Below are positions 10,057 through 38,707 of a stretch of 59,367 bases of DNA, in pieces. The DNA is from Candidatus Poribacteria bacterium (GTDB taxonomy: Bacteria; Poribacteria; WGA-4E; WGA-3G). A model generated the notes under the pieces. It did no database searches. It was not told where the DNA came from and was given only the letters and a program-made list of their open reading frames with translations. Made by a program: the position numbers and the translations under genes. The stretch covers positions 1 through 59,367 of the forward strand of contig JAJECK010000141.1 in assembly GCA_022822085.1 (NCBI GenBank). Reading direction: 5' to 3'. Positions within the stretch are counted from its first letter, which is position 1, and each line of letters starts with the position of its first letter.

Positions 10057-10821
10057 TCAATCAATTATTGGAGAAACAGCAAAAAACTTAAGAAACTTTA
10101 CTAATTCTGTATGTAATTCCGTTCGTGGGATATAACAATCCACACTAATGTCTGGAACGATTTCTCCATTTTTCTCAGGTAGAAGTTGTTCTTCGGGAGC
10201 ATGCAAAGCAGGTTGCGGATTGATTCGTGACATATTTTCTGTTCGTGCTTCACTTTCAGCGATGACAATTTCTCCAACTGGGAGGTGTGTGGTAAGCTGG
10301 GAGACATCTGTTTCGGTCAGGACAGTAAGGTGCGGTAGAGATGCCTCTGCTAACTCCTCTAACTGAATCATCAATGGTACTATATCGGAAAAAGAATATT
10401 GTGCTTCTATCGGTCTTGCGGTAATAATCGAAAGCAGTGGAATTGATTTCTCTAATGCGATTGTGATTGCCTCAGAATAAACCTTTAGATGTTCTTGCTC
10501 TAGCGAAGTTTCAGGATGTAGGATAAACAGACTTACTGGATAATCTGCAATGGTCTCTTCAATACTAATAACACCAATTGAAATTCCATTTTCGTTGTTT
10601 ATATCATCGGCATTCGTATCTGTAGCATCATTAAAAGTATCGTCTCCCAGTAAGAGTTTTATTCGATTTTCAATAGATATAACATATAGTTTTTTACATT
10701 TCGGACAGATATAACAATTACGTTCTAATTCTCCCCGAAAAGCCACTTCGCCACAATGTGTGCATTTATGCCATAAACTGATGTTATCTTCAGTGATTTC
10801 AGTACTTCGAACTGTTTCCAT
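10057..10821 (-). CDS. Degenerate AccD-like (carboxyltransferase beta) protein
   Basis: 254 residues. The N-terminus matches the zinc ribbon of acetyl-CoA carboxylase carboxyltransferase subunit beta: LWHKCTHCGEVAFRGELERN followed by CPKC, with exact C-X2-C-X15-C-X2-C spacing (Cys20, 23, 39, 42), then ENRIKLLLGDDTFND as in AccD. The following domain keeps the crotonase-like outline (AITIALEKSIPLLSIITAR, ELAEASLPHLTVLTETD). However, the Gly-Gly motifs that bind CoA/acyl groups (SGGARMQEG and TTGGV regions in true AccD) are replaced by TARPIEAQYS and ETDVSQL. It is therefore probably a non-catalytic paralogue. It lies 38 bp downstream of a STAS anti-sigma antagonist gene, which hints at a regulatory job. 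No accA partner is in the window. The family call is from remembered AccD sequence patterns. Confidence 0.65.
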   Translation of the reverse strand: METVRSTEITEDNISLWHKCTHCGEVAFRGELERNCYICPKCKKLYVISIENRIKLLLGDDTFNDATDTNADDINNENGISIGVISIEETIADYPVSLFILHPETSLEQEHLKVYSEAITIALEKSIPLLSIITARPIEAQYSFSDIVPLMIQLEELAEASLPHLTVLTETDVSQLTTHLPVGEIVIAESEARTENMSRINPQPALHAPEEQLLPEKNGEIVPDISVDCYIPRTELHTELVKFLKFFAVSPIID

Positions 10822-10859: not shown

Positions 10860-11204
10860 CTATAGAAAACTCGCAATTGCATCATCTTCAGTTTCGTATC
10901 GGTCAAAAATAGTAACAAGTTTTGCCATAATGATGAGACTTCTGATGTTTCCGCCAATATTGAGAAGAGCAATTCTTCCACTATTTCGTCTTATAGAAGC
11001 GTAAGCTGCGACAATCACCCCTAACCCTGAACTATCCATCATTTGGACTCGTTCTAAATTCAAGATCATAAACACTGGTTCACCGTCTGCTTCACGAATT
11101 TGGTCATCAATAATGTTTTTCAGTGCGATGGTGTTAGGACCAACGAGGTTCCCTTCAATATCTAAAATAATTACACTCCCCTTATTCCGTAAGTTAATTT
11201 GCAT
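10860..11204 (-). CDS. STAS-domain anti-sigma factor antagonist (SpoIIAA/RsbV type)
   Basis: 114 residues, entirely one STAS domain. The phosphorylatable serine motif is MMDSSGLGVIVAA (Ser58/Ser59), which is the site acted on by RsbW/SpoIIAB kinases and reset by PP2C phosphatases. Shine-Dalgarno AAAGGAG lies 5 nt before ATG 11204. It is the last regulator of the cluster and sits directly upstream of the AccD-like gene (38 bp). It probably binds the anti-sigma kinase encoded at 12007-12483 when dephosphorylated, releasing that kinase's sigma partner. The sigma factor itself is not in the window. Confidence 0.88.
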   Translation of the reverse strand: MQINLRNKGSVIILDIEGNLVGPNTIALKNIIDDQIREADGEPVFMILNLERVQMMDSSGLGVIVAAYASIRRNSGRIALLNIGGNIRSLIIMAKLVTIFDRYETEDDAIASFL

Positions 11205-11363
11205 AAATTCTCCTTTCCTTCAGAATGTCTGTCTTCCTGATATTTTCTGTCCCAATAGCGAGTGCGTATGTATCCGAAGGTCATATAAGTTGTATACTAA
11301 TACATCTGCATTAGTATTATCTGACTACTTTGCAGACGACATATAAAGTATTCCGTATATCTA

Positions 11364-11829
11364 ATACCATTTCTATAAATTATTATCTCATTTACGGTTG
11401 CTATGGTTTTAGTTTTTTAGGACACAAACTAAATGAAGATTAATTTATTAATCAGGTAATTATCATTACCCCATCCGTGTTAACTTGGGGTTTGCAGTTT
11501 ATTATTCGTGTTCTTTAGTCCCGTCGGGACGCAATGTTTATAGTAAAACGTGTCCCGATCCCTCTTTAGTCCCGTCCGGACGATATGTGTGGTGTAACGG
11601 GATTATATAAACATATCGTCCCTACCAAATCAACGGTATGAATGCCATTTAGGCATTCCCTGGGACTAAAGAAACCGTGTTCAACCGTGATCTATAAACA
11701 TATCGTCCCTACGGGACTGAAGAGCACTTGAATGTTCCGAATATGCATGATGAAAAATGACCGATTTAATTACTTAATCTTCATACAGTTTGTGCTACAA
11801 AAAAGAGACATTATTATTAGAAATGGTAT
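11364..11829. mobile_element. MITE-like element, 466 bp, no coding capacity
   Basis: The ends are inverted repeats: ATACCATTTCTATAAATTAT on the left and, read on the other strand, ATACCATTTCTAATAATAAT on the right. The inner arms remain related for about 90 bp (both contain CACAAACT and TGAAGATTAA). TA at each CCATTTC end fits a TA target duplication, as in IS630/mariner-type transposition. It fills most of the 800-bp gap between the STAS and RsbW genes. Two shorter relatives lie at 12503-12615 and 14639-14786. No transposase with these ends is in the window. Confidence 0.7.
11516..11719. repeat. Four copies of a TAGTCCCGTxGGGACG palindromic unit
   Basis: Inside the 466-bp element, the unit TAGTCCCGTCGGGACG...ATGTTTATA occurs twice on the + strand (11516-11542 and 11565-11590) and twice inverted (11606-11623 and 11691-11719, reading TATAAACATATCGTCCCT). 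The GTCCCGTCGGGAC core is itself a palindrome. Spacing is irregular and copies alternate in direction, so this is a REP/MITE-like cluster, not a CRISPR array. The remaining sequence to 12006 shows nothing coding. Confidence 0.65.
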
Positions 11830-12006
11830 AAGTTGCCATATACAAGATTGATAACAGAAAGGTCCTGTTCTCTGACCAAACAAGGATTTCCACTAATAGT
11901 GATGCGGTTTGTTCAATATCGGGTTAGAACCGCTTCCTACAAGAGAGACTGTAATCGGGTTAGAAACCGCTTCTACAAAACTTTTGCGTATAGGTATGAA
12001 CTTGGA

Positions 12007-12483
12007 TTACTTATATTTAACCATTTTGACGATGGTACCGTTAGCGTCGTATTCTACCTCATCCATACATGCTTCCATGAGGAATAAGCCTCGACCACTA
12101 CTTTTTAGGAGATTTTCAGGTTCCAGTGGATTCGCGACTTCTTCGCGTTCAAACCCAATTCCTTCATCTTTTACGACAATCGTAAGTCTATCCTCGTCAA
12201 TAAGAAACTCAAAAGTAGCAGTCTTATTGATGTCTTCTTTATTGCCGTGCTTGATTGCGTTTGTCCCTGCTTCAATGACAGCGAGATTCACATGTTCCTG
12301 CGCTTCTTCATCAAAATTCATCTCTCTCAGAATATCGCTGATAACAGTGTCAAGTAGATAAATCAACTGCATTGTGCTTGGGAGAGAAAGGAATATTCTC
12401 CATTGATTATTCTCGCCCACGAGTTCTGCTCCTTCCTTGTGAATGCTAAGCTTCCGCGCTGAATCTGTGAATGAAACTACCAA
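12007..12483 (-). CDS. RsbW/SpoIIAB-type anti-sigma regulatory kinase
   Basis: About 158 residues, one GHKL ATPase domain. The N box is EAGTNAIKHGN (residues 71-81), the G1 box is DEGIGF, and the G2 box is SGRGLFLMEACMDEVEY, typical of serine-kinase anti-sigma factors. These proteins bind either a sigma factor or an unphosphorylated STAS antagonist and phosphorylate the latter. The longest frame starts at a TTG (12483) without a good ribosome binding site, so the first 20-30 residues are uncertain. MITE-like elements flank it on both sides (ending at 11829 and starting at 12503), which separates it from its presumed partners. Partners by context are the STAS protein at 10860 and the phosphatase at 12655. 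Confidence 0.87.
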   Translation of the reverse strand: MVVSFTDSARKLSIHKEGAELVGENNQWRIFLSLPSTMQLIYLLDTVISDILREMNFDEEAQEHVNLAVIEAGTNAIKHGNKEDINKTATFEFLIDEDRLTIVVKDEGIGFEREEVANPLEPENLLKSSGRGLFLMEACMDEVEYDANGTIVKMVKYK

Positions 12484-12502
12484 TTCACATTGGTGTGAAA
12501 TA

Positions 12503-12615
12503 ATACCGTTTCTATAAATTATTGTCTCATTTACGGTTGCTATGGTTTAGTTCTTTAGGACACAAACTAAAAGTTTGTGGGACAAAAAAGAGACATTACA
12601 TATTAGAAATGGTAT
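12503..12615. mobile_element. Short MITE-like element, 113 bp
   Basis: The left end ATACCGTTTCTATAAATTAT and right end ATTAGAAATGGTAT are the same termini as the 466-bp element. The left 70 bp is almost identical to that element (TTTACGGTTGCTATGGTTT, AGGACACAAACTAAA). The centre folds as CACAAACT/AGTTTGTG. It appears to be an internally deleted form of the larger element. It fills the gap between the REC-SpoIIE and RsbW genes and probably interrupted an originally tight operon. Confidence 0.72.
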
Positions 12616-12654
12616 AAGAAAATTTAAGTATTGAAGTATCCAGTCCGTTTGATT

Positions 12655-13905
12655 TTATGTTGCTTTAGGATCAGTGCGTTTAATTACAACCACTGCGCGG
12701 TCATCCTTAGTTTGTGTTGTCCCGCTAAATTCCATTAGTTCCTTTTGAAGAACTGCACATAGAGATTCTGCGGATAAAGTTATATATTTTGAGAAACACT
12801 CAATCAAACGGTCTTCACCATAAAAATCATTTGGTTCTTGCCCTTCTGTTTCAGTTACACCATCAGTATAAAGTACAAGGACATCTCCTTGTGTTAATTG
12901 GCAAGTATCTGATGAAAAAGTGGCTATATCAAATGCCCCTATCAACATACCACCCGTTTCAAGTAGTTCAAACTTTTCTTCATTTTGATTTTGATTTTCG
13001 GAATTCTCTGAGTCTGTTATGAAATGAATGGGCGGACAGTGTCCACCGTTTGCATAGGTAAATCTCCCTGAATCTAATTCTAAAATTCCGTAAACCATTG
13101 TGGCAAATTGTTCAAGGTCGGTGTTTTGAAAAAGTAGTGTATTGATACCTTTAAGAATGGTTGCTGGACAGTCTGTCTGATTACTCAACAAGCGTGAAGC
13201 AGTCTGAATCATGACCATTAAAAGCGCGGCGGGGATTCCATGTCCTTTTACATCGCCCAACACCACACCGATGCGTGTATCAGTCAAAGGTATAAAATCA
13301 TAAAAGTCTCCGGAAACAGAGGTAGAACTTCGGAACAGTGTTGCGATATCGAACCCATCATAGGTTGGTGGTTTTTCAGGAAGCAACTTCATTTGTATTT
13401 CGGCAGCTGCTTGTAGATGTGAACCGAGTTCCGCAACCCCTTCTTCACTGAAACTGTCTCCCATAGCGTTAATTAAAGGGTTAATATATTTTACAGGTCG
13501 CGTCCGTCCCAAGACTGCATTGATTCGGGCAGTTACCTCTCTTAGGTCAAAAGGTTTTGTTATATAATCATCTCCGCCAAATTCCAAACCTTTCAACTTA
13601 TCTTCAGTCTGCGACTTTGCTGTCAACCACAGAACAGGAATTGCACGTGTATCAGTATCATCCTTTAATCGCTTTATAACTTCTAATCCATCCATCTGGG
13701 GCATCATGACATCAAGCAAAATCAGGTCAGGTTGTTCTGCCTTCGCATTTTGAAGTCCGAGGGGTCCCTCATTTGCGGTGATGACATTGAATCCGTCTGA
13801 AGTTAAACTCATTTCAAGCAAAGCGAGTATATCAGGATCATCATCAATGACTAATATGGTTTCGATTGATGGAGTTGAATCGGACACGTAAATTGTTTCG
13901 GACAT
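12655..13905 (-). CDS. Response regulator fused to SpoIIE/RsbU PP2C phosphatase
   Basis: 416 residues. An N-terminal receiver domain (about 15-135) has the acidic pocket VIDDDPD, phosphoacceptor Asp65 in LILLDVMMPQMDG and Lys118 in YITKPFD. It is joined by a short linker to a PP2C-like SpoIIE phosphatase (about 180-415) with metal-binding SGDFYDF and VLGDVKGHGIPAALLM and a C-terminal DDRAVVVIK. Known homologues dephosphorylate STAS antagonists when the receiver is phosphorylated, activating a sigma factor. The histidine kinase at 14770-17328 is the obvious candidate to phosphorylate the receiver. AAGG lies 8 nt before ATG 13905. Confidence 0.92.
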   Translation of the reverse strand: MSETIYVSDSTPSIETILVIDDDPDILALLEMSLTSDGFNVITANEGPLGLQNAKAEQPDLILLDVMMPQMDGLEVIKRLKDDTDTRAIPVLWLTAKSQTEDKLKGLEFGGDDYITKPFDLREVTARINAVLGRTRPVKYINPLINAMGDSFSEEGVAELGSHLQAAAEIQMKLLPEKPPTYDGFDIATLFRSSTSVSGDFYDFIPLTDTRIGVVLGDVKGHGIPAALLMVMIQTASRLLSNQTDCPATILKGINTLLFQNTDLEQFATMVYGILELDSGRFTYANGGHCPPIHFITDSENSENQNQNEEKFELLETGGMLIGAFDIATFSSDTCQLTQGDVLVLYTDGVTETEGQEPNDFYGEDRLIECFSKYITLSAESLCAVLQKELMEFSGTTQTKDDRAVVVIKRTDPKAT

Positions 13906-13982: not shown

Positions 13983-14576
13983 CTATTGTTGCAAGGAAAC
14001 CGATTTCCGCACGTGCCAAATAGGATCCTGAAGCAATAGCTGCCTTATACGCTCAATGAATATTGTGTCTTTTGAGGCAATTGCCATCTTGAAGGCAGCT
14101 TGTCTTATGTAAGGGTCCTCGTGTTTACAGAATTGGTCAGCGATTTCTTTCGCGTCATTTGGATTAAGGCGTGCCAAGCTGAGGAGTGCTCGCCGCTTGC
14201 AGTAGTCGTCGGGGTCTTGAAGCCCTTTTTTCAGGAGATTTTCCGCCTTCCGACCAGCACAACTAAGAACATCATACACTTGCCACCGTGTACTTGAGTA
14301 TGCCGATTCTGTCAGCAAACGCAATACGTCCCAACATCGATCTATGTGGGTTCTTGCACAATCAGCAAGATGTTCTCCTTCTTCTGAAATTGCCCAACAT
14401 TTGTCGATATACTGGATATCCTCTTGCTTTGGGGATTGCCGGGTCATTTCGTAAATAGCGGCATCCATCAAAAGTCTCCATCTGGGATAATCTTCCTGCC
14501 AACCATCATCGTTTTGGTCTGCCGTGCTCGCCCACTCTTCCCAATCTTTGTATCTTCTTTCTATATCACTTGCCAT
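13983..14576 (-). CDS. HEAT-repeat protein
   Basis: About 197 residues. The C-terminal 110 residues form three or four HEAT/PBS-lyase-type helical repeats (WDVLRLLTESAYSSTRWQVY, GLQDPDDYCKRRALLSLARL, FCKHEDPYIRQAAFKMAIA, LLQDPIWHVRKSVSL). The N-terminal part is acidic and tryptophan-rich (WEEWASTADQNDDGWQEDY). The reading frame can begin at GTG 14600, but AGAGG directly precedes the second of two adjacent ATGs (14576), so I start there. It lies between the histidine kinase and the response-regulator phosphatase genes on the same strand, so it may be a scaffold or modulator for that signalling pair. That role is an inference. Confidence 0.7.
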   Translation of the reverse strand: MASDIERRYKDWEEWASTADQNDDGWQEDYPRWRLLMDAAIYEMTRQSPKQEDIQYIDKCWAISEEGEHLADCARTHIDRCWDVLRLLTESAYSSTRWQVYDVLSCAGRKAENLLKKGLQDPDDYCKRRALLSLARLNPNDAKEIADQFCKHEDPYIRQAAFKMAIASKDTIFIERIRQLLLQDPIWHVRKSVSLQQ

Positions 14577-14638
14577 CATTTCCTCTACTGCTGTGTCCAC
14601 CTAATTTACGCCCTCAAATTGTAAATCTACAATTAATC

Positions 14639-14786
14639 ATACCATTTCTATATGATAACATAACATTATTTCGTAGGTCGGGTAGAAGCAGTAGCGAAAC
14701 CCGACTTCTTATAGCGTCATGTCGGGTTTCGTTCCTCAACCCGACCTACAATATATTATGACAATTTGGTCAATTAGAAATGGTAT
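14639..14786. mobile_element. MITE-like element, 148 bp, overlapping the end of the histidine kinase gene
   Basis: The termini ATACCATTTCTATATG (left) and CAATTAGAAATGGTAT (right) match the elements at 11364 and 12503, but the interior is different: it carries a separate palindromic repeat (14673-14749). The right end lies inside the histidine kinase frame and provides its last codons and TGA stop. This suggests insertion into the 3' end of that gene. Confidence 0.72.
14673..14749. repeat. GTAGGTCGGG palindromic repeat, copy 1
   Basis: The arms GTAGGTCGGG and CCCGACCTAC enclose internal copies of CGAAACCCGACTT and GTCGGGTTTCG, so the whole unit is a nested hairpin. A close relative lies at 45179-45260. 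It is non-coding and carried here inside a MITE. Confidence 0.75.
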
Positions 14787-17328
14787 CATAATTCGTCGGT
14801 GTAAAATAAAGTCTTTTAAGATAAAACGGAATCCAGAATTGAAAGTTGCAACCTTTCCCATTTTCTCCCGAATCTACCCATATTTTTCCTTTGTGTGCTT
14901 CAGCAAATCCCCGTGCAATTGCGAGTCCTAAACCTGTGCCGCCCTGTTCACGGGTCTGTACATTCCCGAGTTGTTGGAATTTATCAAATACATTTTCACG
15001 TTCTTGAGCAGGTATTCCAGGTCCTGTATCAAGTACTTCCACGTGAATACCTTCCTTTTCCTCAGTGTAAGAACTACTGTCTTCAAGCGGACATTTCTTG
15101 TGCGAAATTTTTACAGTAACTCTTCCGTCAGTAGGTGTGAATTTTATAGCATTCCCAACCAGATTTGTAAAAATTTGACCGAGTCGTTCTTCGTCTCCAT
15201 TTATGTTAGGTAAATCCGGTTGAACACTCAACTCTAAATTGATTGCCTTTTCATCTGCTTGTAGTTTGAGTTCTTCCAGACGTTGCTGTGCAATATCCGC
15301 AAGATCAACAGACTCGAGTTTCATGACAATCCGTCCTGCTTCAATTCGGGAAATATCCAGCAAATCGTTAATCATCATCTCAAGGCGTTTTGATTGTCGA
15401 TGTGCGCGGGTCAAACTAAGTTGTTGAGCATCGTTAACAGGACCTGCTTTTCCATCAAGTATCAGTGCTATGAAACCGATGATTGAAGCCAAAGGGGTAC
15501 GCAATTCATGTGAAACGAGTGCTACAAAATCAGATTTCATCTGATCTATTTCGTGTTCACGTGTTATATCGTCAAAGACATAAACCATTCCCGCCATTTC
15601 TGTATTTTCATCAGATATATTATCACCATTATCTGATGTTTGAATAGTGGAAAAATAACTCGTTACTACACGGAGTATACGATTTTCACCTTCTTGATCA
15701 GAGCTAACTTCAACTGTAATCCTTGTATCTTTCCCATGTGTATTCGCCAAAACTGTTAGGTCTGTGGTTTGCAATAATTGGGTGAACCGTTCGGGAAACT
15801 CTGAAGTCTCACTAAAATTAAGCAGATGTTTCGCTGCGGGGTTAAAATAAAGAATTGTATCATTTGTATCTACCACGATGAGTCCTTCACTAAGACAGTC
15901 CACAATAGTTGTCATTTGCTGCTCTGCACTGATAAGTTTCTCAACAGCGATTTTCAGGTTGTGGTGCATTTCAGTGAATTCATGTGCCAATATTCCGACT
16001 TCGTTTTTGCTATCAGCTGCAATTAACTCAGTTTCATCGTCTTTGAACCATCGCATATTTGCTATATTTTTTCGGACTTGATCGGATTCTTCTTGTACTA
16101 CCTCTTTCGCTTCTTGTCCGATCCGTTTTGCGGTTTCTGCAAGCTGCATCACAGGTAAGGAAATCCGTTGCGCTGCGACGTAGGCAACAGGAACGACGAT
16201 GAGACATGAGAGTATTGTCACCCAAAACACATATTGATTCAATTTCGCTACACCAGCGTACGCCTCTGAACTGGGATATGAAACAAACACGATCCATTTC
16301 GAGAAATTTGGTTCACTTTTCCACGTTTGCCATCTTGAAGGCGTAGTTCGTGCCCAACCGTATAAGCGAGATTCGTTGTTACGATCTGATTCGCCTTGTA
16401 CCACATAACCGTAAGTGTCTCCATCGCTCCCTTTTTTAGCTTCAGCAATTGCTCGTGCAACTGCTTGTTCAATAAGCATTTCCTGATTTATTTTATAACC
16501 ACTTTCCTCTGAAGCAGCGATGATGATTCCTGATTGTGATGTTAAAATTGTTTGTGTATTCATCTCTTCCATCGATTCAACAACATTTGAGAGTTCTGGT
16601 ATTGAAAAGGTAGCCTTTAATATTCCAACTACCTCGTTTCCACCGGTTGATGACCTTCTTGGACTTCTCTCTCGAATAAGAAATGCTATGGTGATATAAT
16701 GCCTTTTCAGCATCTCATCATATTTGACATCCTCGGCATAATCAAAACTGTATCCTTTATTGAATGCATGATTCCACCACTCTTGTTTCTTAACTTGTGT
16801 TGGTAATTCACCTTCTTTATAATCAAGTTCTTTATAATCAAGATCAGGATTGTTTGAACGCAAAACATATCCATCAATATTTGTAATTGTTACTTCACTT
16901 GTTATTGTTGCTCCGTTTCTGTCTCTATTTCTTTCACCTCTGTTCCTAAATCGTCTCCATCTTGGGCGACCAGCATAGGTTTCTAACAACCTTATACTAT
17001 CTTCTAAGCTTTCTCGTACCTCCCAGAAGACTTCTTTGTCTCCATTAGCAGTGTTAGATTTTATGACTTCAGGGACGAGATTAGATATTTCCCTTCTGAT
17101 GTTTCCAATCCTTTGATCAACGACACGATCAGCAAGAAACAACTTTTCTCGTGCAAGTAAAGCCAAGTTTTCACCTACATTTGTTCTTAGGGCTCTTCCA
17201 CCCAACACTTGGATAGTGAGTGAAACAACTAATAAAGGTGCAAGCGAAACGATGAGAAACAGGATTACTTGTTGACCTCGCAGTCCCATCTTAAACCAAG
17301 AATGTATTGCAGGTTTTTTCTTTTCCAT
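14770..17328 (-). CDS. Membrane sensor histidine kinase (Cache-HAMP-PAS-HisKA-HATPase)
   Basis: 852 residues. A transmembrane helix at about 17-40 (VILFLIVSLAPLLVVSLTI) precedes a large extracytoplasmic sensor of double-Cache type (about 45-360) and a second helix near residue 370 (VFWVTILSCLIVVPVAYVAA). A HAMP linker follows, then a PAS domain (about 475-590), HisKA with phosphoacceptor His in FVALVSHELRTPLASIIGF, and HATPase with NLVGNAIKFTP, DTGPGIP and GGTGLGLAIARG. It is an autophosphorylating inner-membrane kinase that senses a periplasmic ligand. AAAGGAG precedes ATG 17328. It is downstream of a STAS gene and upstream of the HEAT and REC-SpoIIE genes, so it probably phosphorylates that receiver. 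The last residues (YDTISN) and the stop codon come from a MITE end. Confidence 0.93.
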   Translation of the reverse strand: MEKKKPAIHSWFKMGLRGQQVILFLIVSLAPLLVVSLTIQVLGGRALRTNVGENLALLAREKLFLADRVVDQRIGNIRREISNLVPEVIKSNTANGDKEVFWEVRESLEDSIRLLETYAGRPRWRRFRNRGERNRDRNGATITSEVTITNIDGYVLRSNNPDLDYKELDYKEGELPTQVKKQEWWNHAFNKGYSFDYAEDVKYDEMLKRHYITIAFLIRERSPRRSSTGGNEVVGILKATFSIPELSNVVESMEEMNTQTILTSQSGIIIAASEESGYKINQEMLIEQAVARAIAEAKKGSDGDTYGYVVQGESDRNNESRLYGWARTTPSRWQTWKSEPNFSKWIVFVSYPSSEAYAGVAKLNQYVFWVTILSCLIVVPVAYVAAQRISLPVMQLAETAKRIGQEAKEVVQEESDQVRKNIANMRWFKDDETELIAADSKNEVGILAHEFTEMHHNLKIAVEKLISAEQQMTTIVDCLSEGLIVVDTNDTILYFNPAAKHLLNFSETSEFPERFTQLLQTTDLTVLANTHGKDTRITVEVSSDQEGENRILRVVTSYFSTIQTSDNGDNISDENTEMAGMVYVFDDITREHEIDQMKSDFVALVSHELRTPLASIIGFIALILDGKAGPVNDAQQLSLTRAHRQSKRLEMMINDLLDISRIEAGRIVMKLESVDLADIAQQRLEELKLQADEKAINLELSVQPDLPNINGDEERLGQIFTNLVGNAIKFTPTDGRVTVKISHKKCPLEDSSSYTEEKEGIHVEVLDTGPGIPAQERENVFDKFQQLGNVQTREQGGTGLGLAIARGFAEAHKGKIWVDSGENGKGCNFQFWIPFYLKRLYFTPTNYDTISN

Positions 17329-17372: not shown

Positions 17373-17708
17373 CTATTCAAAAGCATTGTATGCAGCTTCT
17401 TCAGTCTCATATACCTCTAAAATTGATGTAAGACGCGTTACTTCCAGTATACTGGTTACAGCTTTTTGTGGATTTAGCAGCACCAATTTGCCACCGGATC
17501 TTTGCAAGACTTGAAATGCAAGAATAATTACACCCAGGGCAGTGCTATCAAGGAGTGGGACGTCCGTAAGATCAATGATAAGTTTGTTATTTCCATTTTG
17601 CAGCTGCTGTTCAATTTCGTCTTGCAACTGATCAACAATACCACCGATAATTTTGCCTTGAACGTGGACAATTGCAGTATTCAGAACATCCGTTGTAATT
17701 TGAAACAT
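17373..17708 (-). CDS. Second STAS-domain anti-anti-sigma factor
   Basis: 111 residues from ATG 17708, which has AAGGAG 9 nt upstream; an in-frame ATG at 17747 lacks such a site. It is a single STAS domain with the phosphorylation-site motif PLLDSTALGVIILA (Ser55/Thr56). It is only distantly similar to the STAS protein at 10860, so the two probably serve different kinases or have different regulation. It lies 44 bp upstream of the histidine kinase gene on the same strand, forming the head of the signalling block. Confidence 0.88.
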   Translation of the reverse strand: MFQITTDVLNTAIVHVQGKIIGGIVDQLQDEIEQQLQNGNNKLIIDLTDVPLLDSTALGVIILAFQVLQRSGGKLVLLNPQKAVTSILEVTRLTSILEVYETEEAAYNAFE

Positions 17709-17793
17709 TGCATAAAACTCCTTGCCTACTGAACTACTATTTATCAAACACGCGTTAGTGAGAAGTGTATCTATGAATAACCGATGGGAGTCA

Positions 17794-27705: not shown

Positions 27706-27787
27706 GCAATTCACTAAAATCTTGGTGATTATTGCTTATAATCTTATCTGACCTAAATTACACTTTATGTGATTATAAGTTGAAAAA

Positions 27788-27872
27788 CGGAGAGGGTGGG
27801 ATTCGAACCCACGATGACTTACGCCATAACTGCTTAGCAGGCAGTCCAGTTCAACCACTCCTGCACCTCTCC
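27788..27872 (-). tRNA. tRNA-Ser (GCT)
   Basis: Minus strand, about 85 nt, CCA not encoded. The acceptor is GGAGAGG/CCTCTCC with discriminator G; the anticodon loop CTGCTAA gives anticodon GCT (reads AGU/AGC). Long variable arm present. Confidence 0.95.
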
Positions 27873-27880
27873 AAAATATA

Positions 27881-27968
27881 TGGCGGTGGGAGTAGGATTC
27901 GAACCCACGGTGACTTGCGCCACAACGGTTTTCAAGACCGCCGCTTTCGTCCACTCAGCCATCCCACC
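27881..27968 (-). tRNA. tRNA-Ser (TGA)
   Basis: Minus strand, about 88 nt with encoded CCA. The acceptor is GGTGGGA/TCCCACC; the anticodon loop CTTGAAA gives anticodon TGA (reads UCA and wobbles). The T stem has one G:U pair. It is 8 bp from the tRNA-Ser (GCT) gene. Confidence 0.95.
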
Positions 27969-28130
27969 ATTATTATTAAAGAAACAACTTTAATTTTAAC
28001 ACATATTACAGCCTTTGTCAAGCGAATTTGCACCAGGATTGATTTGTTTCCATATTTCTGACGCAATTTATCACATGTCTTATTTTTTATGAAGAAATAA
28101 TCTAATTTTTAGTAGGGTATCAGTGAACTT

Positions 28131-34079: not shown

Positions 34080-35519
34080 CTAGGTTGATATGAGGACTGT
34101 TGGAATATATCTATCTGTTGAAACCCATTCGTAGCATTGAATTTCACCAAGCGTATTCAAACGATGTCCCAAAAAAAGAGCAAACTGTGCAGGTCCAGCA
34201 AAGAAAAGGTGAATTTTCTTAGCTTGTGTTCTACTAATCAATTCTTGAATTATTGACTTCGCCTTTTGGACTGCCACGTTTGTTTGTTCATCTGATTGAA
34301 GAGCAGCGTTACTATATAAATAAAGTCGTTTTCCATTGAAATGTTTCGTTTCTAAGTATCGTTCTACATCTGCATTAGCAGTATCTTTCAGGATGGAAAT
34401 TCCCACTGCTATTTCATCATTTGATTCTCCATCTATAGATTGCTCCCAATGATAATCTGCTGTGTTTTCCTTAGCATGACTATTTGTCCACCAGATACCA
34501 TCTTTGGTTTGTATACCGATTGTAAAGCCAGAAACCGCAGAAAAAGTAGCACCAATTGCAATAGATGCAGATAGTCTGCGGTGTCCAATCAAATGTATGC
34601 GTCGAGTACGCTTTGTCGCAATTAACCATTCTTTTGTGGCACAGAGTTTGTCAGTAACCTTCCGGTTCCATTCATCTGTTGGGGGATAGTTACGATTGGT
34701 GCCTCCGAAAATGCTCTTCCAATCGAATTGGAGACAACCATCAGGACCTTTATCAATATTTTTTTCAAAGGCCGTGTGCATTCGAATAGTAAATTTTGCG
34801 CAGTCTTTTTCTGTGATTCCCTGCCAAATTGCGTTCTCTAGTTCGTGTCTATAGATTGATTGGTTCGTCCGTGATTTGACCAATTCTGTCAGTTGAGAAT
34901 AAGCGGCATCCGTAGATTTTCCTGACAACGTCCTAAATTCGGGAAAATAACGTTTCATCTCTTCAATAAATATTCCTCGTGCGTGTGTTTCTCCATCTAC
35001 GATACCAAGTTTAAAACGGACTTTTAAAAAGAGAAAATCAGCCATTTTTTTTGATTGCCCTCTGGACTTTACAACTTCAACAAAATCAGAATAGGAAATA
35101 TCTTGTATTTGCTTAACCGCATCATAGAATGAATAAGGATCTCGAACCCGTTTTAAAGAATTTGTGATTGGTTTGAGTTCGTCTGCAACTGATTGGCACA
35201 CTAGTACGAATTGCTGATGGGAATCCGGATCTTGCTGATCTATTTCCCGAAAGTTTTCAATCTCCTGCCAAAATTCATTCGGTTTTAAGCGATAGTTTTT
35301 GTATTCAACAAACTCGTGCCGAATACCAGCATCAGGAACAAAAAACTTCGCTTCAACATCACCTAAAGCTTCACGAATCATTTCTGTAAATCCATCTTGA
35401 GCAAGCCAATTGGGAATTTGGGTGATTGTTGAATTGAATTGGTATTGGAAGCCTTGTTCTGCGATATCACCTCCTCTAGCTTGCGGTGACAGTAGAGATG
35501 AAGGTTGTCGTTTCTGCAT
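34080..35519 (-). CDS. cap4: CBASS effector Cap4 (nuclease-SAVED)
   Basis: About 479 residues. The N-terminal domain has the DUF4297/PD-(D/E)XK outline: GGDIAEQGFQYQFNSTITQI, GDVEAKF (Asp54) and EFVEYKNYRL (Glu72, Lys74). The C-terminal half is a SAVED domain, with RRIHLIGHRRLSASIAIGAT, SAVSGFTIGIQTKDGIWWT and the closing KKIHLFFAGPAQFALFLGHR. In characterised systems SAVED binds a cyclic oligonucleotide and triggers dsDNA cleavage by the nuclease domain, killing the infected cell. The ATG at 35519 overlaps the Cap3 stop (TGATG), so it is translationally coupled; a TTG one codon upstream is unlikely to be used. Confidence 0.87.
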   Translation of the reverse strand: MQKRQPSSLLSPQARGGDIAEQGFQYQFNSTITQIPNWLAQDGFTEMIREALGDVEAKFFVPDAGIRHEFVEYKNYRLKPNEFWQEIENFREIDQQDPDSHQQFVLVCQSVADELKPITNSLKRVRDPYSFYDAVKQIQDISYSDFVEVVKSRGQSKKMADFLFLKVRFKLGIVDGETHARGIFIEEMKRYFPEFRTLSGKSTDAAYSQLTELVKSRTNQSIYRHELENAIWQGITEKDCAKFTIRMHTAFEKNIDKGPDGCLQFDWKSIFGGTNRNYPPTDEWNRKVTDKLCATKEWLIATKRTRRIHLIGHRRLSASIAIGATFSAVSGFTIGIQTKDGIWWTNSHAKENTADYHWEQSIDGESNDEIAVGISILKDTANADVERYLETKHFNGKRLYLYSNAALQSDEQTNVAVQKAKSIIQELISRTQAKKIHLFFAGPAQFALFLGHRLNTLGEIQCYEWVSTDRYIPTVLIST

Positions 35520-35989
35520 CAAATTATTTTCTCCTTTATCAACTCACATTCAAAAAATTGTCCATCTTGGAGAAAAACCGTTGCTGTTGCTTCAATTTCC
35601 TGGGGGGTTTTGAGCCGCACAATAATCAAGACAGCAAAATTTGCCCCGGTGTCAGAGTCGGTTACAATTTCCTGCATTGATTGGATGTCCTGTTGGCTCG
35701 GTATCGGTGGAAATGTAGGGTGTGAGTGCCATTCTCCGAGATAGTTAAATTTTCTATAGTTGTATCCTGTCTGTTTAAAAAACTTCTTTAAGGATCCAAC
35801 AGCGTCTCTTACTAAACGGAGAAAGAACAGAGCGTTTCCAAACTGTTTCTGAATAGTCAAGTCAACTATACGAAATTTCGCTTCATCAATGTGTTCTCCC
35901 ATGAGCACGCCACCGATTTCGCGTGCACCAGCTTTTTCAAGAGTAGGAATAAGCTTCTTTTGGATGTTAGTCGGTAGATAAATTATCAT
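35519..35989 (-). CDS. cap3: CBASS Cap3, JAB/MPN isopeptidase
   Basis: 156 residues of a JAB/MPN (Mov34) metalloprotease. Catalytic Glu24 lies in GAREIGGVLMGEH; the zinc motif is EWHSHPTFPPIPSQQD (His88, His90, Ser98, Asp101). In type II CBASS, Cap3 removes the conjugates that Cap2 makes between the CD-NTase C-terminus and target proteins. The start overlaps the end of cap2 by 23 bp and the stop overlaps the Cap4 start, which fits a single coupled operon. Confidence 0.88.
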   Translation of the reverse strand: MIIYLPTNIQKKLIPTLEKAGAREIGGVLMGEHIDEAKFRIVDLTIQKQFGNALFFLRLVRDAVGSLKKFFKQTGYNYRKFNYLGEWHSHPTFPPIPSQQDIQSMQEIVTDSDTGANFAVLIIVRLKTPQEIEATATVFLQDGQFFECELIKEKII

Positions 35990-37712
35990 TTTTCTGCTTT
36001 AAGATCAACTGCTCTATGAATTCAAGACTTTCATTGGTTTCCTTTTCTGATACTTCCAGTTCAGTTGGAATTGATTGGACATTCTTAAGATCTTTGGGAA
36101 TGGTATGGAACGGTTCTGTGAAAATCCACTCTCTGGTGAGGCCAATCAAGTATAGAGAATAAGGAAAGTTTGATGGCTCTCGTTCAATCAAAATATCAAG
36201 TGCCATTCGGGTAGCATTTGCAGCGATAACGGCAACATCCGCGTCACACGCTGCAATAGGTTCACCCTCAGAATTAACCGTAACATAATCTTCAGTTCCA
36301 TTTATCTCTTGAAGATCTAAACTCTCAAGATATTCATGGAGAGAAGAATGGGTAGTTATAGGATCTGGATCTTGATCGGGGCGAAATCGAGCTATCATTC
36401 CTCCAATTCCTCCTGCATAGATTTCGAACCAGACCAGAGGTTTCATCTGTTGACATGCCACAGTTGACAATTGGTTTAACACCTCGGGGTTAGCTGTGGC
36501 ATCAATGATGAGATCACATGCACCAAGTTGGGAAAGAATACTATCAACAATTCCTGCAGATTCTTGCCCTGTCAGCTTAAAACAGTAACTTTTCACGTTA
36601 ACATCTTGAGCAATAAGTTTCAATTGGTGTGTAATACCATCAACTTTGTGTTGCCCTACATCTTCCCAATTGAGTTCATGGCGGCAGATATTTTCCTGAA
36701 GAAACACGTCGTCGTCAACAAGGAGGAAGTCCCTGACTCCAGTTCGCGCTAGGGAAATGGCAATTTTACTGCCTGCCGAGCCAAGTCCAATGATTCCAAC
36801 GGTCTTACTGTTGAGATTAAAAAATTGCGGCAAAAGACGCGAATTTTCTTCATTACTATTGATATTTACCTGAGCGGAACGCTTCCATTTTTTCTCATTT
36901 GAGGTTAAGAATAGATGTAAACCTCCACTCTTATCAATGAATAGAGCAAGATTAGTTGACGTAGATTTGAGTTGTGAGATATCATAACCATGGGCTTCCA
37001 GAACACTGAAGGGTGAGTCCATACTTTCAAGTTTTAAAGCGTCGGCTTCCAGATTGGTCTTGAAGAAGTACCCTTCAATCTTGTTGGTGGTTTTTTTCAA
37101 TTCTGGCGGTAGTATAGAATGACACCAGATTTCACCATTAAGAGGAGAAAAACTTACTATAAAAGCGACTACATTTTCTCGAGAAGACATAACTTGAAAC
37201 TGAATGGTTCCCGACGATTTTTCTGGAAGTGATCGTGTATAAGAGGTAAGGGGCGCGTCAGCAATAAATCGGAAATGATTAAATCTTAATTCCTGACCTA
37301 ATGTAAGTGAATGTCTTGAGCGGGCAACAATTTGTGGTGAATCTTCTTCCGCAGGATTCTCAATTTCTAATAGTTTATGAGCACTTACAAGCATATCGGC
37401 ACCAGTAACTTTCTCGTGCCAATTGTCAGGTCCCCACTCAAGACAAAGTTCACCAGAACGGTACTGATGTGTTGACCAGTGTAGATTGACTTCGCGCGGA
37501 CACACAGTTGGTGGACTGGCAGGATAATTGGTTGGATAGAGCATGATTATCGGATAGTAGCGACCATGCACCTCAATATCAGCGACAAAGCATAATTTTG
37601 TGTCGTTATTCAATTTCCAGTCTGCTAACTTAAGCCAATCCTCCGTGGAAATCAATTTGGTAACTGCTTCTCGTTCTTTGTGCAATCTCGCGGGATTATT
37701 AAGGAACCACAT
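35967..37712 (-). CDS. cap2: CBASS Cap2, E2-E1 fusion ubiquitin-like ligase
   Basis: 581 residues. The N-terminal E2-like domain (about 15-120) has the catalytic-cysteine segment SGELCLEWGPDNW (Cys90). The C-terminal E1-like adenylation domain (about 300-540) has the nucleotide-binding GIIGLGSAGSK (307-317), DDDVFLQENICRHELNWEDV and, as probable E1 cysteine, GEPIAACDADVAV (Cys489). Cap2 activates the CD-NTase C-terminus and ligates it to other proteins, priming cyclic-nucleotide synthesis. The start overlaps the CD-NTase stop by one base (TGATG). Confidence 0.88.
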   Translation of the reverse strand: MWFLNNPARLHKEREAVTKLISTEDWLKLADWKLNNDTKLCFVADIEVHGRYYPIIMLYPTNYPASPPTVCPREVNLHWSTHQYRSGELCLEWGPDNWHEKVTGADMLVSAHKLLEIENPAEEDSPQIVARSRHSLTLGQELRFNHFRFIADAPLTSYTRSLPEKSSGTIQFQVMSSRENVVAFIVSFSPLNGEIWCHSILPPELKKTTNKIEGYFFKTNLEADALKLESMDSPFSVLEAHGYDISQLKSTSTNLALFIDKSGGLHLFLTSNEKKWKRSAQVNINSNEENSRLLPQFFNLNSKTVGIIGLGSAGSKIAISLARTGVRDFLLVDDDVFLQENICRHELNWEDVGQHKVDGITHQLKLIAQDVNVKSYCFKLTGQESAGIVDSILSQLGACDLIIDATANPEVLNQLSTVACQQMKPLVWFEIYAGGIGGMIARFRPDQDPDPITTHSSLHEYLESLDLQEINGTEDYVTVNSEGEPIAACDADVAVIAANATRMALDILIEREPSNFPYSLYLIGLTREWIFTEPFHTIPKDLKNVQSIPTELEVSEKETNESLEFIEQLILKQKNDNLSTD

Positions 37713-38707
37713 CAGGCAAACCCCCGGGGTTTATTGGGAGTTACAGGTCTGTTAGGAAAAGATGGTGATGTCAACCCTACAGGTGCTGCCAACAAACTTT
37801 CGGATTTTGTTCCTTTTGTTTCAGGAAACCGATCTCCAAAAATCTGTTGCCAGTGTTCGGTCGCTTTTTCTGGATCTGTTTCGTTTAACGCTTTTCGCCC
37901 AAGTTCGGCATGTTTTTTTACCTTGTTAAAAAAACCGTTGAAAGCATCTGATGTAATTCCATAGGTAACTGGAGTACCTGATCCGCCTGGATCTGCAATA
38001 GTTGGAACAATGTTTAAATCTACGTACGACTTGTACTTCTTGACAATCTCTTCAAAAGTTTTTACAAACAGTTCACCGTAGTAAGTTTCTACATAATCCA
38101 TACATTCAGCAATAATGCACTCAATAACAAATCCTTTGGGTTTCTTAGAAATAGTACGGTTTTCGCGTCTCCACCATTTGTTGAGTTTTACTAATGGCTT
38201 AAAGCGACCACTAGCTGCTTGGTTGGTTTCAGTCGTCCAAGTTGTATGCCTTGGCGGGTTGGTTAAAAGCCAACTTTCTTGTTTTCTATCAGGAATAAGG
38301 TACATTGCACCATAAGGTATTATCGGAACAACGTCCATGTCAGCTTTAGATGCTTCAATACCTACTGACCGGGCTTGTCTGCGGATGTTGGGATACTTTT
38401 TCTTCAAGGTTGTGTAAAGTAAGTCAACTACCTCTTTCGGTTCATCAGTCAAAGTGTGATTTGTCACAACGATAATATCAACATCTGGTCGTTCGGTCTC
38501 ACCTTTTTTGGAACGGGGACGAATAGCCGTATTTCGCTTATAAGAACCTGATAGGAAGGTATTCTTATAGTATTCTTTAAAGTCATCATCGTTTTTGAGA
38601 AAATCACGTAATTCTGTGTGGGCGGAAGAGGCGTTACTTTTAGTTGTAGGACTCGGTTCAATGTCACTCAGGAATTCAGTGAACCGAGCTTGTGGAATTG
38701 TCGGCAT
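37712..38707 (-). CDS. CBASS CD-NTase (cGAS/DncV-like nucleotidyltransferase)
   Basis: 331 residues. The Pol-beta-type active site has [14 protein letters not shown] (Gly-Ser at 54-55), [10 protein letters not shown] (Asp75, Asp77) and a third acid in [13 protein letters not shown]. The helical C-terminal lobe matches OAS/cGAS-like enzymes. The C-terminus is a flexible tail ending in RGFA; in type II systems the terminal residue is the point of conjugation by Cap2. The product is probably a cyclic di- or trinucleotide; SAVED effectors are often served by trinucleotides. GGAG lies 9 nt upstream of the ATG. It is the first gene of the operon. Confidence 0.88.

Follow-up and report, generated by a model that had tools for sequence, protein, structure and literature searches.

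What is a homologue of the acetyl-CoA carboxylase subunit AccD doing in a partner-switching cluster? Partner switches are best known for controlling sigma factors, and the outputs of several have not been identified. The locus raising this question lies on Candidatus Poribacteria contig JAJECK010000141.1 (GCA_022822085.1), and the whole contig of 59,367 nucleotides is the window analysed here (Table 1). In a first-pass annotation, made from the sequence alone, the gene product was described as an AccD-like pseudoenzyme encoded within a partner-switching cluster, 38 bp behind the gene for a STAS antagonist. Both statements held: the protein, which we call pseudo-AccD, matches AccD, has lost the catalytic loops and is linked to RsbW and STAS genes, and the STAS gene ends at position 10860, with pseudo-AccD starting at 10821.

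Table 1. Coordinates of the pseudo-AccD gene, its neighbours and other annotated features of the window
Feature	Position	Strand	Remarks
Pseudo-AccD	10057..10821	-	254 aa, ATG start; AccD fold, without catalytic loops
C-terminal AccD signature (residues D228-R233)	10123..10140	-	Kept in 56/57 and 57/57
Site of AccD D-P-T-x-G-G-x-x-A-S loop (residues 170-184)	10270..10314	-	Glycines lost, helix absent in model
Site of AccD S-G-G-x-R-M-Q-E loop (residues 134-143)	10393..10422	-	Glycines lost
Zinc ribbon C20-X2-C23-X15-C39-X2-C42	10696..10764	-	Best-kept stretch of pseudo-AccD
STAS1, anti-sigma antagonist	10860..11204	-	D-S-S-G-L-G phosphosite intact; TIGR00377 above cutoff
Intergenic dispersed repeats, RsbW-STAS1 interval	11351..11834	.	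Also 12501-12618
RsbW/SpoIIAB-type kinase	12007..12483	-	Pfam HATPase_c_2, E 1.1e-26; N, G1 and G2 boxes present
Response regulator receiver + SpoIIE-type PP2C phosphatase	12655..13905	-	Phosphatase E 2.8e-46
HEAT-repeat gene, flanked by the phosphatase and histidine kinase genes	13983..14600	-	Sporadic passenger, 3/54 related loci
Sensor histidine kinase	14770..17328	-	HAMP-like, PAS, HisKA, HATPase
STAS2, second antagonist	17373..17747	-	
CBASS-like SAVED-endonuclease effector	34080-35522		PADLOC
CBASS-like E1-E2 protein	35967-37712		PADLOC
CBASS-like oligonucleotide cyclase	37712-38707		PADLOC

AccD descent, fold and catalytic loops

The window protein is an AccD homologue, with a likeness to AccD well beyond chance. 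It matched the Pfam family Zn_ribbon_ACC above cutoff (E 1.2e-7) and the NCBIfam accD model (TIGR00515) with an E of 8.7e-13 and 48 bits, a score that did not reach the equivalog cutoff of 317. Using relatives taken from 85 genomes of the phylum (alignment A2, 55 sequences), we obtained a family profile that matched solved AccDs over their full length, among them E. coli 2f9y_B at E 7e-37, and that, compared profile to profile with Poribacteria's catalytic AccD, reached a probability of 99.8%. An AlphaFold model of pseudo-AccD (mean pLDDT 78.5, pTM 0.75, most of the core >90) had AccDs as its best PDB fold matches (5kdr_B, Z 19.5; 2f9i_B, 19.4; 2f9y_B, 18.6). These matches covered both the ribbon and the crotonase core, confirming the crotonase outline that had been made out in the single sequence. 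The top hits of both the profile and the structure comparison were thus AccD and no other zinc-ribbon family. Assignment to a different ribbon family was also rejected by the Pfam results, with Zn_ribbon_ACC found in the window protein and in 51 of 55 family members. The ribbon spacing C-X2-C-X15-C-X2-C, previously noted as exactly that of AccD, is indeed exact in the window protein, and its four cysteines are invariant in all 57 members of the family. The protein as a whole is acidic (pI 4.5), and the charge of its ribbon is about +4.

We counted active-site residues in a joint alignment of 57 pseudo-family sequences and 24 true AccDs. The glycine-loop positions G132, G163, G164, G204, G205 and G229 (E. 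coli numbering) are retained in 22-24 of the 24 true AccDs and in 1-10 of the 57 pseudo-family sequences. Individually, G163, G164, G205 and G229 are present in every true AccD and in 8, 4, 1 and 1 members of the pseudo family, respectively, and G204 is found in 22/24 and 10/57. Also missing from the pseudo family is the MQMAKT helix, which follows the first oxyanion loop. Other positions are kept throughout, namely P155, E220 and R263 (57/57) as well as R60 and D258 (56/57). The Pfam domain Carboxyl_trans was matched by none of 55 pseudo copies and by all 23 true copies, and the AlphaFold model has no helix at the expected place of the second glycine loop. The loss of the Gly-rich CoA/acyl-binding loops, first read from one sequence, is therefore borne out by the 57-member counts and by the helix missing from the model, and the check for an intact active site gave the same picture in sequence and structure.

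Judged from alignment and model, the conclusion that pseudo-AccD is a catalytically dead AccD paralogue is well supported. A divergent carboxyltransferase that is still active on another acyl-CoA would account for the retained fold and zinc ribbon, but is highly improbable given that both oxyanion-hole glycine loops are absent in nearly all members, that the model lacks the second-loop helix and that Carboxyl_trans went unmatched in 55 members.

Distribution, selection and the division between paralogues

Pseudo-AccD was found in 78 of the 85 Poribacteria genomes. Four of the seven genomes without it (G015, G043, G047 and G069) also lack an orthologue of the cluster phosphatase and the downstream lipoprotein-like gene, so that the entire region is either absent or unassembled there. 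In a fifth, G073, the phosphatase is matched only in part and the gene downstream is on a separate contig, which fits a contig break; the remaining two genomes, G055 and G059, are themselves incomplete. Scanning GTDB contigs with the single sequence gave no match to pseudo-AccD. An alignment scan returned 54 loci, all from Poribacteria; it was keyed on one 10-residue pattern, and other phyla were covered through this pattern alone.

In the tree, the pseudo family forms a single clade (support 100/99) in which members from two outlying classes branch first and which, going by this topology, is of one ancient origin. The clade is placed near the Poribacteria AccD with weak deep support, and a sister grouping was not rejected (AU test, p 0.447). 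Pseudo-AccD evolves fast relative to true AccD and to the neighbouring genes. Pairwise dN/dS among close pairs was 0.12-0.22, indicating purifying selection; these values rule out a decaying pseudogene. The window's own genome encodes an intact catalytic AccD beside topA (G000:C91) and a single AccA, and across the phylum true AccD and AccA occur in the same genomes as pseudo-AccD.

The two paralogues have retained ribbon and core reciprocally. As a canonical reference we used nine AccDs from Pseudomonadota, Bacillota, Actinomycetota and Fusobacteriota, with E. coli and plasmid or chromid records as sources. Ribbon similarity to this set was 0.50 for pseudo-AccD, 0.51 for the canonical proteins among themselves and 0.31 for the catalytic AccD of Poribacteria; core similarity was 0.22 for pseudo-AccD and 0.54 for the catalytic copy. 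In 20/20 genomes it was the pseudo copy that had the more canonical ribbon, and in 20/20 the true copy that had the more canonical core. Similarly, Zn_ribbon_ACC was matched by 7 of 23 true copies versus the 51 of 55 pseudo copies, and W24, K26 and the L-E-R-N stretch show the retention of the ribbon by eye. This conservation could, on the other hand, reflect an RsbW- or STAS-binding face only. In a Sinorhizobium meliloti gene annotated as accD (L177), the ribbon cysteines are lost (PETG and PQSG), which hints that certain lineages may not need the ribbon for catalysis.

These comparisons bear on the possibility that freed pseudo-AccD acts as a decoy, either competing with AccD for AccA or joining the complex as a dead beta subunit, and thereby throttles malonyl-CoA synthesis, a mode of action also ascribed to the dead BADC subunits of the plastid enzyme. 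Such a role would make sense of a protein that keeps the whole AccD fold and the C-terminal signature in genomes that also carry true AccD and AccA. We nevertheless consider it distinctly unlikely: the core is 22% like canonical AccD compared with 54% for the true copy and, with the MQMAKT helix lost and the glycine loops gone from around the alpha-beta active site, the usual AccA interface is probably not kept.

Linkage to an RsbW/STAS module

In the class of the window genome, the genes usually follow the order STAS2, histidine kinase, receiver-SpoIIE phosphatase, RsbW, STAS1 and pseudo-AccD, often with galK and a ROK kinase gene next. The two outlying classes have parA, parB, STAS, RsbW and pseudo-AccD, with no histidine kinase or phosphatase gene in the cluster. 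The first-pass annotation had proposed looking at whether homologues always neighbour STAS genes. A STAS gene was found at ≤600 bp in 52 of 55 loci, and all 55 loci with enough flanking sequence had RsbW upstream of pseudo-AccD and encoded on its strand; at some loci, the STAS and pseudo-AccD ORFs overlap by 4-8 bp. Since STAS1 is missing in three loci, all of one family, the tightest link is to the RsbW kinase and not to the adjacent STAS. The linkage of pseudo-AccD to the RsbW/STAS module is well supported, and this linkage across 55 loci, together with the gene order in the outlying classes, defines a core of STAS gene, RsbW and pseudo-AccD. STAS2 is probably the STAS of this ancestral three-gene unit. 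In a single genome, a gene for an FAD-dependent oxidoreductase lies between RsbW and pseudo-AccD, at the usual place of STAS1 (L048:5638-6747).

The spoIIA and sigB operons have the gene orders spoIIAA-spoIIAB-sigF and rsbV-rsbW-sigB. By analogy with them, the STAS-RsbW-pseudoAccD order of the outlying classes puts pseudo-AccD at the sigma position. No cognate sigma factor gene was present among the cluster genes scanned, and many sigma-factor genes are located elsewhere in the genome. Because the phosphosite D-S-S-G-L-G of the STAS protein is kept (first S 45/45, second S 43/45) and the N, G1 and G2 box patterns of RsbW are found in most members (51, 52 and 47 of 54 loci, respectively), the switch itself looks functional at the sequence level. 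An Rfam search of the cluster gave no match, and promoter-like sites in it were not more frequent than in shuffled sequence. In the window, an insertion several hundred bases long separates RsbW from STAS1. It is built from dispersed short repeats, for which the genome gave 112 matches, and is absent in the two close relatives that were aligned.

Two further readings can be weighed against this conservation. A neutral relic, or a chance neighbour without a role in the switch, would be in keeping with evolution that is fast compared with true AccD and the neighbouring genes. The data on linkage and selection already contradict it: linkage to RsbW stayed fixed through class-level rearrangement, the gene is retained phylum-wide and dN/dS is 0.12-0.22. 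We give this reading almost no credence. Alternatively, pseudo-AccD could be a scaffold or specificity factor that holds RsbW, STAS and the phosphatase together, with a protein encoded at another locus, whether a sigma factor or not, as the real output. The constancy of RsbW (55/55) while STAS1, histidine kinase and response regulator come and go could be explained in this way, as could the many sigma-factor genes of the genome. Against it stands a conserved cluster without a sigma gene, and we know of no partner switch that needs an adaptor of this kind, so that we regard a scaffold as unlikely.

Elsewhere in the window, a CBASS-like anti-phage locus extends over 34080-38707, with strong PADLOC matches for all three genes. 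Furthermore, an ORF at 27732-28061 (+) containing 'GIRTHDDLRHN' and 'SRIRTHGDLRHNG' runs antisense across the tRNA-Ser genes 27787-27873 and 27881-27968; the motif of this spurious protein is thus tRNA antisense.

A possible mechanism and its relation to known systems

We favor a model in which pseudo-AccD is the output partner switched by RsbW and STAS and its ribbon acts on acetyl-CoA carboxylase or its mRNA, and we put the probability of this model at roughly 0.4. It draws on the AccD descent, the dead site, the evidence of selection, the presence of RsbW at 55/55 loci, the spoIIA-like gene order of the outlying classes, the joint absence of gene and cluster from at least four genomes and the reciprocal retention of ribbon and core; the acidic pI of 4.5, the sigma factors encoded elsewhere and, with regard to ordinary AccA assembly, the loss of the MQMAKT helix count against it. 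Its strongest rivals are the scaffold role and the AccA decoy. We infer from gene context that pseudo-AccD is a regulator; it may also bind RNA or DNA, as raised in the first-pass annotation, the ribbon being its best-kept stretch. The gene order, short of proof, points to a client of RsbW, and the arrangement suggests that what this switch governs is not transcription initiation; the contact between RsbW and pseudo-AccD, its release by STAS and the target are putative.

According to the switched-partner model, RsbW would bind and silence pseudo-AccD as it would a sigma factor. Dephosphorylation of a STAS protein would be the work of the histidine kinase together with the response-regulator/PP2C phosphatase, and STAS in this state would take RsbW and so free pseudo-AccD. 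The free protein would then carry out, via its kept ribbon, the regulatory part of what ancestral AccD did, its most likely target being accA/accD mRNA or the carboxyltransferase complex, and membrane-lipid synthesis would be tied to the sensed signal. The zinc finger of E. coli AccD has been reported to bind accA and accD mRNA (PMC3896788). In its broadest form, the proposal is that the two jobs of AccD have been divided, with one paralogue in charge of catalysis and the other of ribbon-borne regulation under an RsbW/STAS switch at the sigma place, so that a sensor kinase would steer acetyl-CoA carboxylase and lipid synthesis; this we consider doubtful.

Pseudo-AccD resembles known AccDs (2F9Y, 2F9I, 5KDR; TIGR00515) in ribbon spacing, whole fold, C-terminal D-x4-R signature and length. 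Unlike them, it has neither the catalytic glycine loops nor the MQMAKT helix, and it is encoded in a signalling operon. The module shares with SpoIIAA-SpoIIAB-sigmaF and RsbV-RsbW-sigmaB the DSSGLG STAS, a kinase with the N/G1/G2 HATPase boxes, the SpoIIE-type phosphatase (in most of the phylum) and the gene order of the outlying classes. It differs from both in that the third gene encodes pseudo-AccD and not a sigma factor, and in that the phosphatase is fused to a receiver domain and adjoins a histidine kinase. The same RsbW/STAS core is present in the non-canonical partner switches SypA/SypE, BtrV/BtrW and HmpV/HmpW, whose output is non-sigma or not known and for which the sections of the review drawn on here describe no AccD-type partner (PMC8256260).

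In the literature collection searched, no paper turned up on AccD as a pseudoenzyme or on acetyl-CoA carboxylase in connection with partner switching. With its fixed place at the sigma position phylum-wide, a dead subunit of a metabolic enzyme would be a concrete candidate for a metabolic output of a partner switch. As a natural protein with the ribbon and without catalysis, it would also allow the mRNA role of the AccD ribbon to be tested apart from the enzyme. The plastid acetyl-CoA carboxylase is regulated by BADC, a non-biotinylated dead subunit. Like BADC, pseudo-AccD would be a paralogue of an acetyl-CoA carboxylase component that has lost its activity and been put to regulatory use; unlike pseudo-AccD, BADC derives from the biotin carrier and not from the carboxyltransferase, and it works without a partner switch.
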